Positions 10,314 through 18,308 of a stretch of 64,000 nt of DNA are shown here, in pieces (position 1 is the first letter of the stretch; the number at the start of each line of letters is the position of its first letter). The stretch is from Noviherbaspirillum sp. L7-7A. GTDB taxonomy: Bacteria; Pseudomonadota; Gammaproteobacteria; Burkholderiales; Burkholderiaceae_D. The notes beneath the pieces were generated by a model. The model was not told the DNA's origin. It saw only the letters and a list, made by a program, of their open reading frames with translations, and did not search any database. The position numbers and the translations under genes were made by a program. The stretch lies in NCBI RefSeq assembly GCF_019052805.1, contig NZ_JAHQRJ010000001.1, forward strand, positions 3,906,001 to 3,970,000, in the 5' to 3' direction.

Positions 10314-10600
10314 CCCGTTGAGCGCGCCGTGACGGCGATGCCTGAAGCGGATAAGGTGCGGCGTCTGTTTGAGCGAAGCGCAGCGTAGCGAGTTTAGCCG
10401 CGCCCCGCTTCAGGCATCGCCGTCACGGGGACCCCGCGCAGCGGGGCGCGATCACCGGGTCGCCTTTTCTTGCCTACTTCTTTTGGCGAAGCAAAAGAAG
10501 TAGGTCGCCTGCCGGGGCGAACACCCGGCCTGGTCATGACGGCAGTGCAGTGGCGTTGTTTCACCCGGCGTAAAGGCGTCACTGCGAAGCAGCAGTTGCT
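10314..10600 (+). repeat. Multi-hairpin intergenic element, copy A
   Basis: Begins with CCCGTTGAGCGCGCCGTG. Stem 1 pairs 10327-10350 with 10405-10428, a perfect 24 bp arm pair enclosing a loop with AAGGTGCGGCGTCTGTTTGA. Next come a CCCCGC-GCA-GCGGGG hairpin (about 10432-10446), stem 2 CTACTTCTTTTG/CAAAAGAAGTAG around a GCGAAG loop (10474-10503), and a small stem GCCGGG/CCCGGC (10511-10529). The right limit is approximate. Copy B is inverted at about 10640-10925. The element carries no transposase. Related palindromes are widespread in Burkholderiales and Xanthomonadales, so it is probably a non-autonomous repeat. Confidence 0.8.
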
Positions 10601-10639
10601 TTTGACGTTCGCAGTTCGCATCGTAACGACGAACGTCAA

Positions 10640-10925
10640 CGTCAACGACGACAGTGCTGCCCGTGCCTTGCCGGGTGACGCAAGACGGATGCACTGCCGT
10701 GGGGACAAGCCGGGAGTCCGTCCCGGCGGCCGGGTCACTTTTTTTGCTTCGCCAAAAAAAGTAACCAAAAAAAGGCGACCCGGTGATCGCGCCCCGCTGC
10801 GCGGGGATCCCGTGTCAGCGGTACCCGGAGCGGGGCGCGGCTAAACTCGCTCCGCTTCGCTCCACTCAAACAGACGCCGCACCTTTTCCCGCTCCGGGTA
10901 CCGCTGACACGGCGCGCTCAACGGG
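10640..10925 (-). repeat. Multi-hairpin intergenic element, copy B (inverted)
   Basis: Inverted copy of the element at 10314-10600. Its outer end is the same CCCGTTGAGCGCGCCGTG (read on the minus strand from 10925). Stem 1 pairs 10810-10834 with 10888-10912 over 25 perfect base pairs, but its sequence differs almost completely from stem 1 of copy A. The enclosed loop is conserved, differing mainly in a short GAGC-rich segment. Stem 2 is ACTTTTTTTG/CAAAAAAAGT (10737-10746 with 10753-10762) around the same GCGAAG loop. The small stem is at 10709-10727. The inner limit is approximate. Confidence 0.8.
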
Positions 10926-10930
10926 ATTTC

Positions 10931-11050
10931 ACTGCAACGGCAACGGCAACGGCAACTGCAACTGCAACTGCAACTGCAACTGCAACTGCAACTGCAACTG
11001 CAACTGCAACTGCAACTGCAACTGCAACTGCAACTGCAACTGCAACTGCA
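10931..11050 (+). repeat. Hexanucleotide microsatellite, 20 tandem units
   Basis: Twenty perfect-length units of six bases: unit 1 ACTGCA, units 2-4 ACGGCA, units 5-20 ACTGCA (16 identical copies, 96 bp). It directly abuts copy B of the inverted element and ends 96 bp before the osmC start. Low-complexity reading frames across it (alternating Asn-Cys or Ser-Cys) are not genes. Six-base slippage would change the spacing between the upstream DNA and osmC without a frame effect. The repeat number should be variable between isolates. Confidence 0.95.
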
Positions 11051-11090
11051 CCGCCACTTTCGCAAATTGCAATTATTTCAGCCATCCGTT

Positions 11091-11146: not shown

Positions 11147-11575
11147 ATGACAGTCAAAAAGGCATGGGCGGTATGGCGTGGCGGCATCAAGGATGGCGGC
11201 GGCACGATTTCCACCGAAACCGGCGTACTTAAGGAAGCACCCTATGGCTTCAAGTCGCGCTTCGAGGACGGCCCCGGCACCAATCCGGAAGAACTGATCG
11301 GCGCCGCGCACGCTGGCTGCTTTTCCATGGCGCTGTCGCTGATGCTGGGCGAAGCCGGCCTGAAGCCGGAACAGATCGATACCCACGCAGCCATCACCCT
11401 GGAAAAGTCAGCCGACGGATTCGACATCACCGCCAGCCACCTCACCGTGGTGGCACGCATTCCCGGCGCCGATCAGGCGAAGTTCGAAGAGATCGCCAAC
11501 AAGGCAAAGGCCGGCTGCCCGGTTTCCAAGGTGCTCAACGCCAATATCACGATGGACGCCAGGCTGGAAGGCTGA
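11147..11575 (+). CDS. osmC: OsmC-family peroxiredoxin
   Basis: Cytoplasmic thiol peroxidase that reduces organic hydroperoxides. 142 residues, normal length. NPEELIGAAHAGCFSMALS (about 43-61) contains the peroxidatic Cys and AKAGCPVSKVLNANI (about 121-135) the resolving Cys, the two-cysteine layout of OsmC. GGAGGATAC precedes the ATG. The leader holds the hexamer microsatellite, a 13 bp palindrome and a GC hairpin, so regulation may be unusual. OsmC proteins are generally stress-induced. Single gene. Confidence 0.95.
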   Translation: MTVKKAWAVWRGGIKDGGGTISTETGVLKEAPYGFKSRFEDGPGTNPEELIGAAHAGCFSMALSLMLGEAGLKPEQIDTHAAITLEKSADGFDITASHLTVVARIPGADQAKFEEIANKAKAGCPVSKVLNANITMDARLEG

Positions 11576-11710
11576 CCGCCCCTCATCCACCAGCGCCGGG
11601 CATGCACTCGCTCGCCCGGCCACCATCCACCTGGCCGCGGCGCTGCATGCGCCTGCACCCTCCATTTAATTGATATAGAGCAATCTATTTCCTGCTGGAT
11701 AAAATTTCTA
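11576..11710 (+). other. Intergenic stretch between osmC and the riboswitch promoter
   Basis: No gene. It contains a short GCCGGGC...GCCCGGC hairpin shortly after the osmC stop without a T-run, then an AT-rich segment. TGCTGG at 11693-11698 is the left half of an inverted repeat whose right half, CCAGCA at 11714-11719, overlaps the -35 box of the following promoter. This could be an operator. Confidence 0.35.
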
Positions 11711-11739
11711 TTGCCAGCAAGAAATATGTTCGCTAGTAT
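11711..11739 (+). promoter_or_regulatory. Sigma-70 promoter of the riboswitch/subtilase transcript
   Basis: TTGCCA at 11711-11716 and TAGTAT at 11734-11739 are separated by exactly 17 bp. The predicted transcription start, about 7 bp downstream (near 11746), falls at the 5' edge of the riboswitch aptamer (11744). That placement supports both predictions. Confidence 0.65.
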
Positions 11740-11743
11740 TGGC

Positions 11744-11840
11744 GCGTGGTCTGAAAAGGCAAACCTGGCGAAAGCCAGGGACGCAAAGTCATCGGTCTAC
11801 CGGGCAAAACGCCCTATGACGGCAGGACTGCCAGACACGC
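11744..11840 (+). ncRNA. Cyclic di-GMP class I riboswitch (GEMM-I)
   Basis: The conserved GEMM-I blocks appear in order. P1 5' strand GCGTGGTCTG (11744-11753); GGCAAACC; P2 TGGC-GAAA-GCCA with its GAAA tetraloop (11766-11777); GGGACGCAAAG; GGTCTA; a variable GGGC-AAAA-CGCCC tip; TATGAcgGCAGGacTGCC containing the tetraloop-receptor UAUG; and the P1 3' strand CAGACACGC (11832-11840), which closes P1 with one bulged G. P3 pairs GTCAT with ATGAC. The aptamer senses c-di-GMP. It lies in the 5' leader of the subtilase gene, with no intrinsic terminator before the start codon, so control is probably at translation. Confidence 0.93.
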
Positions 11841-11847
11841 CGCCAGT

Positions 11848-11975
11848 GGGTTCCTTTGCACGTTCAAAGTACCAGTCTTCCATACCGGGGTCGCCACAAC
11901 TCCGGCAGACATGCGCTGACGGCGTATCCAAGCAGTTCTGTCCAGGTACCGCTTCTAAACCTTGGACAGGAACTC
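11848..11975 (+). promoter_or_regulatory. Possible expression platform: anti-Shine-Dalgarno and hairpin
   Basis: GGGTTCCT at 11848-11855, 8 nt after the aptamer, can pair with AGGAACTC at 11968-11975, which contains the Shine-Dalgarno of the subtilase (8 bp, one G-U). A separate local hairpin, TGTCCA-GGT (11939-11947) with ACC-T-TGGACA (11959-11968), ends at the first base of the Shine-Dalgarno. These suggest that ligand binding controls ribosome access, but whether c-di-GMP turns the gene on or off cannot be told from the sequence. Confidence 0.5.
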
Positions 11976-11978
11976 ATC

Positions 11979-13820
11979 ATGAACCAGCAAAATGCATCGA
12001 AGTTCGTAAGACACAGAAACAGCCATTCCTTCCTGCGCCAGCGCGCCATCGACCTGGCCTGCCAGGCAGCCTTCCTGCTGCCTTCCATGCTGGTCGGCGC
12101 AGCCGTCCTGCAGGCGCCGGCAGCCATTGCGGCGCAGCCGGTGGCCAACAGCGCCGAGCAGTATGCCCGCGGCCGCATACTGGTGATGCCGCGCGCCGGC
12201 CTGAGCGAAGCCGAATTCGTCAAGGCACTGGCGCCGCACGGCGGCCGTGGCAAGAAAATCGGCCAGAGCGACCTGCACGTTGTCGAACTGCCGGCCAATG
12301 CTTCCGAAAAAGCCGTGGTGGAGCGCCTGAGCCGCCATCCGCATATCAAGTTCGCCGAACTCGACCGTCTGGTCAAACCCAACTTCGTCAGCAACGATCC
12401 CTACATGGGCAGCGAATGGCACCTGAACAAGGTTGGCGCCACCACTGCCTGGGACACCACCCAGGGCGCGGGCGTGATCATCGCGATCCTGGATTCGGGC
12501 GTCGATGGCACGCACCCGGACCTGGCGCCGCAGATGGTGCCCGGCTATAACTTCTACGACAACAACACCAACACGTCCGACGTCAACGGCCATGGCACCG
12601 CAGTGGCCGGCGTGGCGGCTGCCGCCACCAACAATGCGCTGGGCGTGGCCGGCGTGGCAGGCCAGGCCAAGATCATGCCTGTGCGTATCGCCGACGCCAA
12701 TGCCTATGCCTACTACAGCACCATCGCCAAGGGCGTCACCTATGCCGCCGACAATGGCGCGCGCGTGGTCAACTGCAGCTACGGCGGCGTGGCCGGCAGT
12801 TCCACCATCCAGAGCGCGGCGCAGTACCTGAAGAACAAGGGCGGCCTGATGTTCGTCTCGGCCGGCAATAACGGCGTCGATGAAAACATCACGCCGACCA
12901 CCACCATGATCGCGGTGTCGGCTACTGATGAGAATGACTATCGCACCAGCTGGTCCAGCTACGGCAACTTCGTCTCGATGGCGGCGCCCGGCATCACCTA
13001 CACCACCAGCCGCGGCGGTTACTACGACAACTGGCAGGGCACGTCCTTCTCCAGCCCGCTGACGGCTGGCGTGGCGGCGCTGATGATGGCGGCCAAGCCC
13101 TCGCTGGGCAGCGCCGACATCGAGAAGCTGATGTTCTCCACCGCCGTCGACATCGGCGCCGCCGGCCGTGACATCTACTACGGCTACGGCCGGGTCAATG
13201 CCGCCGCCGCGGTGCAGGCAGCGGTCAACACCACGGTAGCCGTGGACACCCAGGCGCCGGCGGTGTCGATTTCCAATCCGATCGCCTATGCCAGCGTCAC
13301 CGGCGTGGTGCCGGTCAATGTCAGCGCCACGGACAACGTCGGCGTGGCGCGGGTGGAACTGAAGGTCAATGGCAGCACGGTGTCAGTCGACAGCGCCGCG
13401 CCGTTCGCCTTCAGCTGGGACTCGGCCAGCGTGCCCAACGGCATGGCCAACCTGGTGGCATACGCCTATGACGCCGCCGGCAACGTGGCCGCATCGACCA
13501 CGGTCGCGGTCAACGTGGCCAACGGCACGACCGTGGTGGCAAACGACACCACCGCACCGAAGGTGAAGATCGCCAACCCGGTGTCGGGCAAGGTCTCGGG
13601 CAATGTGTCGGTCAGCAGCAGCGCCGAGGACGACAGCGGCGCTGCCGGCATCACCCAGTGGATCTATATCGACGGCACCCTGGTTGCCACCGGCAAGGGC
13701 TCCAGCCTGGCTTACAACTGGAACACCCGCAAGGCCAGCAAGGGCACCCACGCCATTGCGGTGACGGCGCGCGATGCGGCGGGCAATACGAGCACGACCT
13801 CGGTGAGCGTGATGAACTGA
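11979..13820 (+). CDS. Secreted subtilisin-like serine protease (S8) with two Ig-like domains
   Basis: 613 residues from the ATG at 11979, supported by AGGAA upstream; an upstream in-frame start would lie inside the riboswitch leader. A signal-like hydrophobic stretch ends near APAAIAAQ (about 53). An I9-like propeptide (about 60-130) follows. The catalytic triad is Asp in AILDSGVDGTHPDL (about 172), His in NGHGTAVAG (about 205) and Ser in GTSFSSPLTAG (about 356), with the oxyanion Asn in SAGNNG (about 297). The C-terminus (about 415-613) holds two Ig-like domains, each starting near TxAPxVxIxNP. Probably exported and matrix- or surface-acting; transcript sensed by c-di-GMP. Confidence 0.94.
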   Translation: MNQQNASKFVRHRNSHSFLRQRAIDLACQAAFLLPSMLVGAAVLQAPAAIAAQPVANSAEQYARGRILVMPRAGLSEAEFVKALAPHGGRGKKIGQSDLHVVELPANASEKAVVERLSRHPHIKFAELDRLVKPNFVSNDPYMGSEWHLNKVGATTAWDTTQGAGVIIAILDSGVDGTHPDLAPQMVPGYNFYDNNTNTSDVNGHGTAVAGVAAAATNNALGVAGVAGQAKIMPVRIADANAYAYYSTIAKGVTYAADNGARVVNCSYGGVAGSSTIQSAAQYLKNKGGLMFVSAGNNGVDENITPTTTMIAVSATDENDYRTSWSSYGNFVSMAAPGITYTTSRGGYYDNWQGTSFSSPLTAGVAALMMAAKPSLGSADIEKLMFSTAVDIGAAGRDIYYGYGRVNAAAAVQAAVNTTVAVDTQAPAVSISNPIAYASVTGVVPVNVSATDNVGVARVELKVNGSTVSVDSAAPFAFSWDSASVPNGMANLVAYAYDAAGNVAASTTVAVNVANGTTVVANDTTAPKVKIANPVSGKVSGNVSVSSSAEDDSGAAGITQWIYIDGTLVATGKGSSLAYNWNTRKASKGTHAIAVTARDAAGNTSTTSVSVMN

Positions 13821-13974: not shown

Positions 13975-14676
13975 TCAGCCTTGCTGAGCCGCCTTGCGCC
14001 TGGCCGCAAAACCCATTCCCAGCAAGCCCAGGCCAAGCATGGCGATCGTGCCTGGCTCGGGAACGCTGGTGGACGGGCCGCCGGGGTTGCCCGCCAGGGC
14101 TACATAAAATGTTTCCTGGCCACCGGTGGCATTAATTGCATGTGCCAGCAGTCCGATACGATTAGTTGGCGTTTCAAACGCTGATTTGGCGCTGATTATG
14201 TCTGCAGCGTCGAGGCCAAAGACAAAGCCCGCACTGCCGGTGCCGGGCTCCGTGCTGTCAAATACGACTTGCGTGAAAGCGCCTGATTGAAACAGCGCTG
14301 TTCCTCCGCTGGCTGAGAATATGTACAGGATCAGGTCGGTCAGGGTGATGGAGTCGCTTGCCGGTTCTGTGGCATTGAATACGACCCGCAGATTGGCCGG
14401 ATCGCTCAGGCCCAGTTGTCCCAGGCTGAGTGTTTGCGTCTGGGATGCGTTTACATCGCCACTCTTCACATCTGCAGTGCCATTCCATACAACACTTCCA
14501 AGCTCGGTGCTTGAATTGCTTGGACTGCTGATGGTAAGGACCGTATTGACAGCGCCCAATCCGGTTCCACTGATCGTTTCACCATCCAGATAAATCAGGG
14601 CCGCGTGTGCTGGTAATGCAGCAGAGAGCAGGCTAGACGCCATTAGCATGCCGGCAAGTAGTTTTTTAAGATGCAT
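13975..14676 (-). CDS. PEP-CTERM sorting-domain protein
   Basis: Exported protein of 233 residues processed by an exosortase and linked to exopolysaccharide. Signal peptide MHLKKLLAGMLMASSLL...ALPAHA at the N-terminus; C-terminal VPEPGTIAMLGLGLLGMGFA followed by ARRKAAQQG is the PEP motif, transmembrane helix and basic tail. The middle is a beta-rich, Thr/Ser/Asn-rich domain with no recognised catalytic site and no cysteines after the signal peptide. AGGGGA precedes the ATG at 14676. No exosortase gene is in the window. The upstream DNA carries a sigma-54-type promoter. Confidence 0.93.
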   Translation of the reverse strand: MHLKKLLAGMLMASSLLSAALPAHAALIYLDGETISGTGLGAVNTVLTISSPSNSSTELGSVVWNGTADVKSGDVNASQTQTLSLGQLGLSDPANLRVVFNATEPASDSITLTDLILYIFSASGGTALFQSGAFTQVVFDSTEPGTGSAGFVFGLDAADIISAKSAFETPTNRIGLLAHAINATGGQETFYVALAGNPGGPSTSVPEPGTIAMLGLGLLGMGFAARRKAAQQG

Positions 14677-14797
14677 GAAATTCCCCTGAAAGTTTAAGGT
14701 TCTGCAACGATTACGGTCGTGTTCCATTCAGGAGAAAGGTGTCCTGGAATGAAATTAGAAAGACAACGCTCGACGGGAACATTGCCTTTCTTGCATG

Positions 14798-15829: not shown

Positions 15830-15989
15830 GGTCGGTTTCTCCTTGGCATGAAAGCATGGATTGGGCGGCGCCGCCGCGACATGGGTCCGATTTGTCTGGC
15901 CGCGCTTTGTTCCACGGCAGGTCCGCTTCGCCGCAACAATGCATGCGCGGGGTATATCATGCGCAGATTCCCTTGCCCACCCGAACGCC

Positions 15990-18308
15990 ATGTCCGATCG
16001 CATCAATGCAGAGCCACCCGCGCCCGACCCCTCCGGCCCCGGTCCGGACCGGGCGCCGGCCGCGCACCGCAGTCGCAAGGCGCTGATCAAGGGGCGCTTC
16101 ATGATGGCCGCCGTCAGCTCGGTGGCGCTGTGCTTCCTGATGAGCCTGCTCTACCTGTTCGGCCTGATGCCGGGCGTGGTGGTGGCCAGCGGCGCCGGGC
16201 TGATCATGGGCAGCGTGCTGCTGTTCTACCTGGTGTTCCGGTTCAGGCTCAACGAGAAGGCGCCCGATCCCAGCATGACCGTGCCCATGACCACGGTGGC
16301 GGTGCTGTGCGTGCTTTATGTGATGCTGGGTTCCGGTGCTGCGCGCGATACCTTCGTCAGCTTCTTCGGGCTGATCCTGCTGTTCGCCGTCTTCCGCTTT
16401 TCAACGCGCATGCTGCTGCTGCAGAGCGGCCTGATGCTCTTGGGCTATGCCGGCGTCATCTTCGTTGCCTGGCGCACCGGGGCGCCCGGTGCCGACCATG
16501 CGCCCGACATTGCCCGCTGGCTCACGCTGGCCGTTGCGCTGCCGCTGTTTGCGCTGATCGGCGGCGAGATCATGGCCGGGCGCCGCGCCGCCATGCAGCG
16601 CCTGCGCGCCAGCGAGGAGCGCTTCCGGCGCCTCACAGCCCTGTCGTCCGACTGGTACTGGGAACAGGACCATGAGCTGCGCTTCACCACGCTGTCGCCC
16701 GGCCTGGAAGCCAAGGCCGGCATTGCGCCTTCGCGGCTGATCGGCAAGACGCTGCCGGAGATCGCCACCGCGCCGTTTCATGCCGACTGGGATGTCCATC
16801 GCGAGGCGAGCGCGGCGCGCCTGCCGTTCGCCCATGTCGAGTTCCAGGCCAGCGACGACAACGGCGCGCTGCGCTGGCTCAGCCTGTCGGGCGAGCCGCT
16901 GTTCGACGCCGACCAGCACTTTCTCGGCTATTACGGCACCGGACGCGACATCACCGCCAAGAAGGCGGTGGAGGCGCGCATCCATTTCCAGGCCCATCAT
17001 GACACGCTGACCGGCCTTGCCAACCGCATGCTGCTCATCGACAGGCTGGAACATGCAATGGCGCAGGCCGACAGCGACGGCCATGCGCTGTGGGTGCTGT
17101 TCGTCGATCTCGACCGCTTCAAGCGCATCAACGACAGCCTGGGCCACAAGGCCGGCGACGCCGTGCTCAAAAGCGTGGCCCAGCGCATGCAGGCGCAGAT
17201 GCGGCCGGCCGACACCATTGCCCGGCTCGGCGGCGACGAATTCGTGCTGGTGCTGTCGGACTGGCCGGCCGGCAGCCTGTCGCTCGGGCTGGTGCAGCGC
17301 ATGATGGACGCGGTGCGCGCGCCCTATGCCGCCAATGGCAACGCCATCCTGATCAGCTGCAGCGTCGGCATCGCGGTCTATCCGGGCGACGCCGCCACCG
17401 CCGAGCTGCTGGTGGAGCGGGCCGACGTGGCGATGTACCGCGCCAAGGAAGCGGGCCGCAACAGCGCCCACTTCTACAAGGCCGAGATGAATGCGGTGGC
17501 GATGAACCGGCTGCGCATGGAGAGCGACCTGCGCGGCGCGCTGCAGGCCAATGAATTCGTGCTGCACTACCAGCCGCAGATGGACCTGAAGAGCGGCCGC
17601 ATCATCGGCGTCGAGGCGCTGCTGCGCTGGCAGCACATGCGGCCGGGCCTGCGCCAGCCGGCCGAATTCATCGGGGTGGCCGAGGAGATCGGCCTGATCG
17701 TGCCGATCGGCGACTGGGTGCTGAACCAGGCCTGCCTGCAGGCGGTGGCCTGGCAGAACGCCGGCCTGCCGGCCATGCACATGGCGGTGAACCTGTCGGC
17801 GCGCCAGTTCGCGCAGCCGGGGCTGGTGGCTTCGGTGTCGGCGGCGCTGGAACGCTCCGGCCTGCAGCCCTCCTTGCTGGAAATCGAGATCACCGAGAGC
17901 CTGATGATGACCGACGTGGAGCAGGCCGTGGCCACGCTGGCCGACCTGAAGCGCCTGGGCGTCAGGGTGTCGGTGGACGACTTCGGCACCGGACACTCCA
18001 GTCTCTATTACCTGAAACGCTTCCCGATCGACGTGCTCAAGATCGACCGTTCCTTCGTGCGCGACATCGTCAGCGATGCCGACGATGCCGCCATCGTGGC
18101 AGCCATCATCTCGCTGGCGCACAGCCTGGAGATGTCGGTGGTGGCGGAAGGGGTGGAGCATGCCGACCAGCTGATCTACCTGTCGCGCTGCGGCTGCGAC
18201 ACCGTGCAGGGCTACATGATCAGCCCGCCGATGCGGGCCGAGGCGCTGGAGCCCTTCCTCGGCGAGGCGCCGGCACAGGCCGGCATGCGGGGCAGGCAGC
18301 GCGCCTGA
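15990..18308 (+). CDS. Membrane-bound PAS-GGDEF-EAL cyclic di-GMP enzyme
   Basis: Bifunctional-type regulator of the second messenger c-di-GMP, 772 residues from the ATG at 15990. About five transmembrane helices (about 35-190) are followed by a PAS domain (about 205-320), a GGDEF domain with an intact ARLGGDEFVLVL active site (about 413) and an EAL domain with VEALLRW (about 540), EITES, DDFGTGHSSLYYLK and AEGVE. All key metal- and substrate-binding residues for both activities are visible, so either or both may function. No good Shine-Dalgarno precedes the start, which is therefore approximate. It lies 4 kb from a c-di-GMP riboswitch. Confidence 0.94.
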   Translation: MSDRINAEPPAPDPSGPGPDRAPAAHRSRKALIKGRFMMAAVSSVALCFLMSLLYLFGLMPGVVVASGAGLIMGSVLLFYLVFRFRLNEKAPDPSMTVPMTTVAVLCVLYVMLGSGAARDTFVSFFGLILLFAVFRFSTRMLLLQSGLMLLGYAGVIFVAWRTGAPGADHAPDIARWLTLAVALPLFALIGGEIMAGRRAAMQRLRASEERFRRLTALSSDWYWEQDHELRFTTLSPGLEAKAGIAPSRLIGKTLPEIATAPFHADWDVHREASAARLPFAHVEFQASDDNGALRWLSLSGEPLFDADQHFLGYYGTGRDITAKKAVEARIHFQAHHDTLTGLANRMLLIDRLEHAMAQADSDGHALWVLFVDLDRFKRINDSLGHKAGDAVLKSVAQRMQAQMRPADTIARLGGDEFVLVLSDWPAGSLSLGLVQRMMDAVRAPYAANGNAILISCSVGIAVYPGDAATAELLVERADVAMYRAKEAGRNSAHFYKAEMNAVAMNRLRMESDLRGALQANEFVLHYQPQMDLKSGRIIGVEALLRWQHMRPGLRQPAEFIGVAEEIGLIVPIGDWVLNQACLQAVAWQNAGLPAMHMAVNLSARQFAQPGLVASVSAALERSGLQPSLLEIEITESLMMTDVEQAVATLADLKRLGVRVSVDDFGTGHSSLYYLKRFPIDVLKIDRSFVRDIVSDADDAAIVAAIISLAHSLEMSVVAEGVEHADQLIYLSRCGCDTVQGYMISPPMRAEALEPFLGEAPAQAGMRGRQRA

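Follow-up and report, generated by a model that had tools for sequence, protein, structure and literature searches.

A c-di-GMP-class riboswitch upstream of an S8 subtilase gene: conserved linkage and a predicted translational OFF switch

The aptamer and protease locus

The window (the whole stretch of DNA that was analysed, 64,000 nucleotides) carries a promoter, a riboswitch aptamer and a protease gene in close succession on its forward strand:

11711-11739, + strand: sigma-70-like promoter, TTGCCA-17-TAGTAT
11744-11840, + strand: complete GEMM-I aptamer including P1 (RF01051 match and flanking P1 strands)
11979-13820, + strand: S8 subtilase of 613 aa, with a secretion-signal-like N terminus, a prodomain, a catalytic domain and two Big_7 Ig domains (Pfam, match to 1thm, triad)

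A search with the RF01051 covariance model (c-di-GMP-I / GEMM-I) gave a match at 11748-11835 (+) with 75.3 bits and an E value of 5.8e-13, which covers model positions 1-87 in full and lies far above the gathering score of 35 bits. P1 extends outside the model: as read from the sequence, GCGUGGUCUG (11744-11753) pairs with CAGACACGC (11832-11840) over 9 pairs with one bulged G. The first-pass annotation had placed a GEMM-I aptamer at 11744-11840 and had named the covariance search as a check; the score and the P1 strands in the flanks confirm this extent. No second RF01051 site was found by the same search elsewhere in the genome of the strain (5.22 Mb, 3 contigs). The promoter with 17 bp spacing, also proposed in the first pass, was recovered as the only sigma-70-like match in a scan of 11560-12000. 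It agrees with the consensus in 9/12 positions, with 0.3 matches expected in shuffled sequences. Its 3′ end (11739) is five bases ahead of P1, and transcription probably starts near 11745-11747, at the 5′ end of P1.

The start codon of the protease gene is 144 nt from the aptamer match. Pfam assigned residues 53-128 to a Fervidolysin_NPro-like prodomain and residues 163-404 to Peptidase_S8, and found two copies of the Big_7 Ig domain. The motifs of the catalytic triad (DSGVDG, GHGT, GTSFSSP) are all intact, in agreement with the earlier description of this gene as a subtilase. Thermitase (1thm, E value 1.1e-55) was the closest solved structure, and from these comparisons the S8 fold of the protease is clear. 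The catalytic domain resembles that of thermitase and other S8 subtilisins, while the protease has a longer prodomain region and the two Ig domains at its C terminus, which the first-pass annotation had proposed as possible means of surface or matrix attachment. Two observations favour a start at 11979: the AGGA sequence seven bases upstream, and a homologue from N. soli (96% identity) that aligns from residue 1. By eye, the N terminus resembles a signal peptide, and the enzyme is probably a subtilase of the secreted type. A second S8 paralogue of the same genome (L167, G000:C1:519934-521451) has no aptamer.

Linkage of aptamer and protease across species

The 294 genomes of the GTDB family contain 41 close homologues of the protease, and 27 of these are preceded on the same strand by a GEMM-I aptamer at a distance of 89-204 nt. 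No aptamer was detected for the other 14, some of them located at contig ends. Elsewhere in the order an aptamer precedes 11 of 15 assessable homologues. Relatives that carry the pair include Duganella, Massilia, Nitrosospira, Nitrosomonas, Nitrotoga, Rubrivivax and a Geobacter. A comparison of orthologous leaders had been suggested with the first-pass annotation, and these counts speak for the proposed pairing. Since the family has only 143 aptamers in its 294 genomes, chance does not explain the linkage.

The locus was retrieved for 121 of the 143 aptamers, and 119 of these 121 had a callable downstream frame. Within the retrieved sites, S8 proteases form the second largest GEMM-I target group (28 members, after a group of 40). 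The aptamer-S8 pair is not rare but among the commoner GEMM-I targets of the GTDB family. The first-pass annotation had described documented pairs of this kind in betaproteobacteria as few, and this holds for the literature but not for the genomes: our search of open-access papers (subscription journals were largely outside it) retrieved no description of a GEMM-I/S8 pair or of the expression platform presented below. The component parts, in contrast, were already known.

In a tree of 64 homologues the aptamer was present on 44 of the 59 rows of the main clade, and its presence or absence changed 9 times, compared with 16.5 changes in shuffles. The simplest reading of this distribution would be one early gain of the aptamer followed by several losses. 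Some genomes contain tandem S8 copies, and each downstream copy has its own aptamer. Such tandem genes occur at L084, L095 and L124; in some arrays no aptamer was detected for the first copy.

Orthologous proteases were also found behind aptamers that scored best as c-di-GMP-I-GGC (L010, L021, L015, L019, L020, L174, L177, L181) and, at L022, behind an aptamer that scored best as the UAU subclass, hinting that the GGC and UAU subclasses may bind the same ligand as the canonical class.

The predicted expression platform

Three strands of the leader of the window can form alternative pairings:

11821-11831, + strand: strand A, GGCAGGACUGC, which forms the 3′ strand of the aptamer and is required for its ligand-bound fold
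11932-11947, + strand: strand M, the switching strand, GCAGUUCUGUCCAGGU, complementary to A and to the Shine-Dalgarno region
11960-11974, + strand: strand H, the ribosome-binding region, CCUUGGACAGGAACU, with the Shine-Dalgarno sequence AGGA at 11968-11971, hidden if paired with M

In the unconstrained fold of this leader, A is paired with M (11932-11942) over 11 bases, and folding also predicts a pairing of M with H that buries the Shine-Dalgarno sequence. The two pairings (A:M and M:H) are mutually exclusive, because M is common to both; A is in addition part of the ligand-bound aptamer.

The layout recurs, with varying sequence, in many orthologous leaders, and shuffled sequences served to compare these with chance. 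In 25 of 40 distinct leaders (62.5%) both pairings reached -10 kcal/mol or lower and overlapped in M, versus 12.3% of shuffles in which the platform was scrambled and the Shine-Dalgarno end was kept. Uninterrupted pairings of 8 bases or more on both sides occurred in 14 of 49 leaders versus 0.9% of shuffles, the orthologues behind both counts not being independent samples. The mean energy of the Shine-Dalgarno hairpin was -16.1 kcal/mol, compared with -10.3 in shuffles. When A:M was forced, the predicted accessibility of the Shine-Dalgarno sequence was higher in 35 of 40 leaders and its median rose from 0.13 (aptamer sealed) to 0.41, an increase that arises partly by construction and has no shuffled control. 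In the leader of the window the corresponding values were 0.17 and 0.59.

For bases 1-3 of M (GCA), pairing with A is possible in 34-36 of 36 leaders, a count favoured by choosing the A segment as the best match, while they are paired in the Shine-Dalgarno hairpin in only 19-25 of 36. In leader L007 the aptamer strand A has GGGUUGC in place of GGACUGC, and the other two strands show matching changes, M being GCAACUCC and H AGGAGUUG. The GCA counts and the joint changes in L007 speak for the A:M arm in particular.

The A/M/H platform is not universal among the leaders. A poor fit was seen for G097, L009 (by the contiguous measure), L015, L019/L020 and L181-L185. RNAalifold on a MAFFT alignment gave no consensus structure for the Shine-Dalgarno hairpins, which we attribute to misregister of the variable loops. 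A comparison with GEMM leaders of genes other than S8 showed no specificity: of the 40 leaders in the commonest target group, 19 have the GCRGYYC motif too, and we do not claim that the platform is specific to S8.

Taken together, the linkage across genera and the shared expression platform make control of the S8 protease by a riboswitch of the c-di-GMP class well supported.

Sign of regulation, related systems and neighbourhood

A scan of 11560-12000 found no intrinsic terminator on the forward strand. This result and the A/M/H layout lead us to predict that the protease leader works as a c-di-GMP-I riboswitch of the translational OFF type, and we consider this reading probable (roughly 70%). 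Without ligand, A would pair with M, which lies about 100 nt downstream, so that the aptamer is opened and the Shine-Dalgarno region H stays free. Binding of c-di-GMP would lock A in the aptamer and release M, which would then pair with H and stop translation of the subtilase. At low c-di-GMP levels (dispersal or motile state) the protease would be secreted, and at high levels it would be held back. In this model the ligand, the sign and the secretion of the enzyme are inferences, and so is its part in the remodelling of cell surface or matrix. The first-pass annotation had linked the protease to the biofilm state without giving a sign or mechanism. Comparative evidence supports the part of this proposal that concerns control by the c-di-GMP class, but the anatomy of the leader points to repression by c-di-GMP, which would assign the protease to the low-c-di-GMP state and not to biofilm.

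The sign could also be the opposite, with ligand binding favouring production of the protease. Class I c-di-GMP riboswitches of both signs exist (Vc1 of Vibrio cholerae and Bc2 of Bacillus thuringiensis are ON switches), and the Shine-Dalgarno sequence stays buried in the unconstrained folds of several leaders, so that the energy model alone leaves the ground state unfixed. We nevertheless regard an ON switch as unlikely, because A:M cannot coexist with the aptamer in its ligand-bound form and M hides the Shine-Dalgarno region, an arrangement that predicts OFF. Slightly less likely still is a main action on transcription or mRNA stability, for example if the Shine-Dalgarno hairpin triggered Rho-dependent termination coupled to a loss of translation. 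Rho can act on untranslated leaders of proteobacteria, and some leaders of the Massilia/Duganella type have a U-run just 3′ of M; against this stand the negative result of the scan for forward-strand intrinsic terminators in the leader of the window and the fact that the Shine-Dalgarno hairpin itself is the conserved element.

Related GEMM aptamers bind 3′,3′-cGAMP, and a G20A change permits this binding, so another cyclic dinucleotide might be the ligand. The model alignment places a G at the specificity position of the window aptamer (AAAAGGCAAA), which we take to correspond to G20 in Vc2 numbering. The same G is present in 46 of 48 other leaders, as counted by a regex scan with two regex misses read by eye. 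One orthologue (L150, G212:C41:4928-5014) has an A instead, like the cGAMP-binding relatives, and the leader at G047:C7 has a C. With G prevailing at this position and the same gene standing behind canonical, GGC and UAU aptamers, which fits one shared ligand, we consider a ligand other than c-di-GMP very improbable. Even less probable is that the aptamer is a relic that has lost control of the gene. Some orthologues lack it, so the gene can do without an aptamer, but the conserved core is complete, the linkage is kept over deep branches and aptamers are retained in tandem copies.

The closest precedent for the predicted OFF switch is zmpI (PPEP-1, CD2830) of C. difficile, which encodes a secreted protease that is negatively regulated by c-di-GMP via a class I riboswitch; its targets are surface proteins that the cell produces when c-di-GMP is high (PMC6366702). 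The subtilase may, in analogy to this, act on proteins of the surface or matrix once the c-di-GMP level drops. The two systems differ in that zmpI combines a zinc metalloprotease with transcription termination, whereas an S8 subtilase and, as we propose, translation are involved here. The strand exchange resembles that of the C. difficile Cd1 OFF switch, which was described by strands P, A, T and H (PMC9262584): in both, a switching strand pairs with either the 3′ strand of the aptamer or an output strand, the latter being the terminator in Cd1 and the ribosome-binding site in the S8 leader. V. cholerae Vc1 and Vc2 belong to the same aptamer family (RF01051) but have other target genes. Vc2 has been called translational, with P1 as the key element (PMC9262584), while the mechanisms of both were stated to be unclear in 2016 (PMC4744006). 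No anti-Shine-Dalgarno sequence was seen between Vc1 and gbpA (PMC4744006), in contrast to the S8 leader, where one is evident.

If the predicted mechanism is true, a single RNA element, with no protein between, would connect the second messenger of biofilms to an extracellular protease in beta-proteobacteria of soil and freshwater, nitrifiers included. This would parallel the logic of zmpI in a distant phylum and with an unrelated protease, and would offer a well-defined translational platform, open to testing, in a class I c-di-GMP riboswitch of Gram-negative bacteria. More tentatively, at somewhat less than even odds, the arrangement might represent a conserved beta-proteobacterial module in which c-di-GMP directly represses subtilase translation via the A/M/H exchange. 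Such a module would include the tandem riboswitch-protease cassettes, would serve generally for riboswitch-timed cutting of surface or matrix at dispersal, and would have originated independently of C. difficile zmpI.

A PAS-GGDEF-EAL protein is encoded about 2 kb downstream of the protease gene (15861-18308, +). We considered this gene as part of the module and rejected it: in a motif scan, 21 of 22 homologue loci had no neighbouring GGDEF motif, and the neighbourhood is therefore not conserved. Pfam identified the product of the gene at 13975-14727 (-), which is convergent with the protease gene, as a PEP-CTERM protein. ARAGORN called a tRNA at 10978-11073, inside an (ACTGCA) array; the call has no Rfam match and looks spurious. 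The array itself comprises 20 tandem copies (10931-11050), is located upstream of an OsmC gene and follows a 183-nt inverted repeat (10350-10888) with 85% complementarity.
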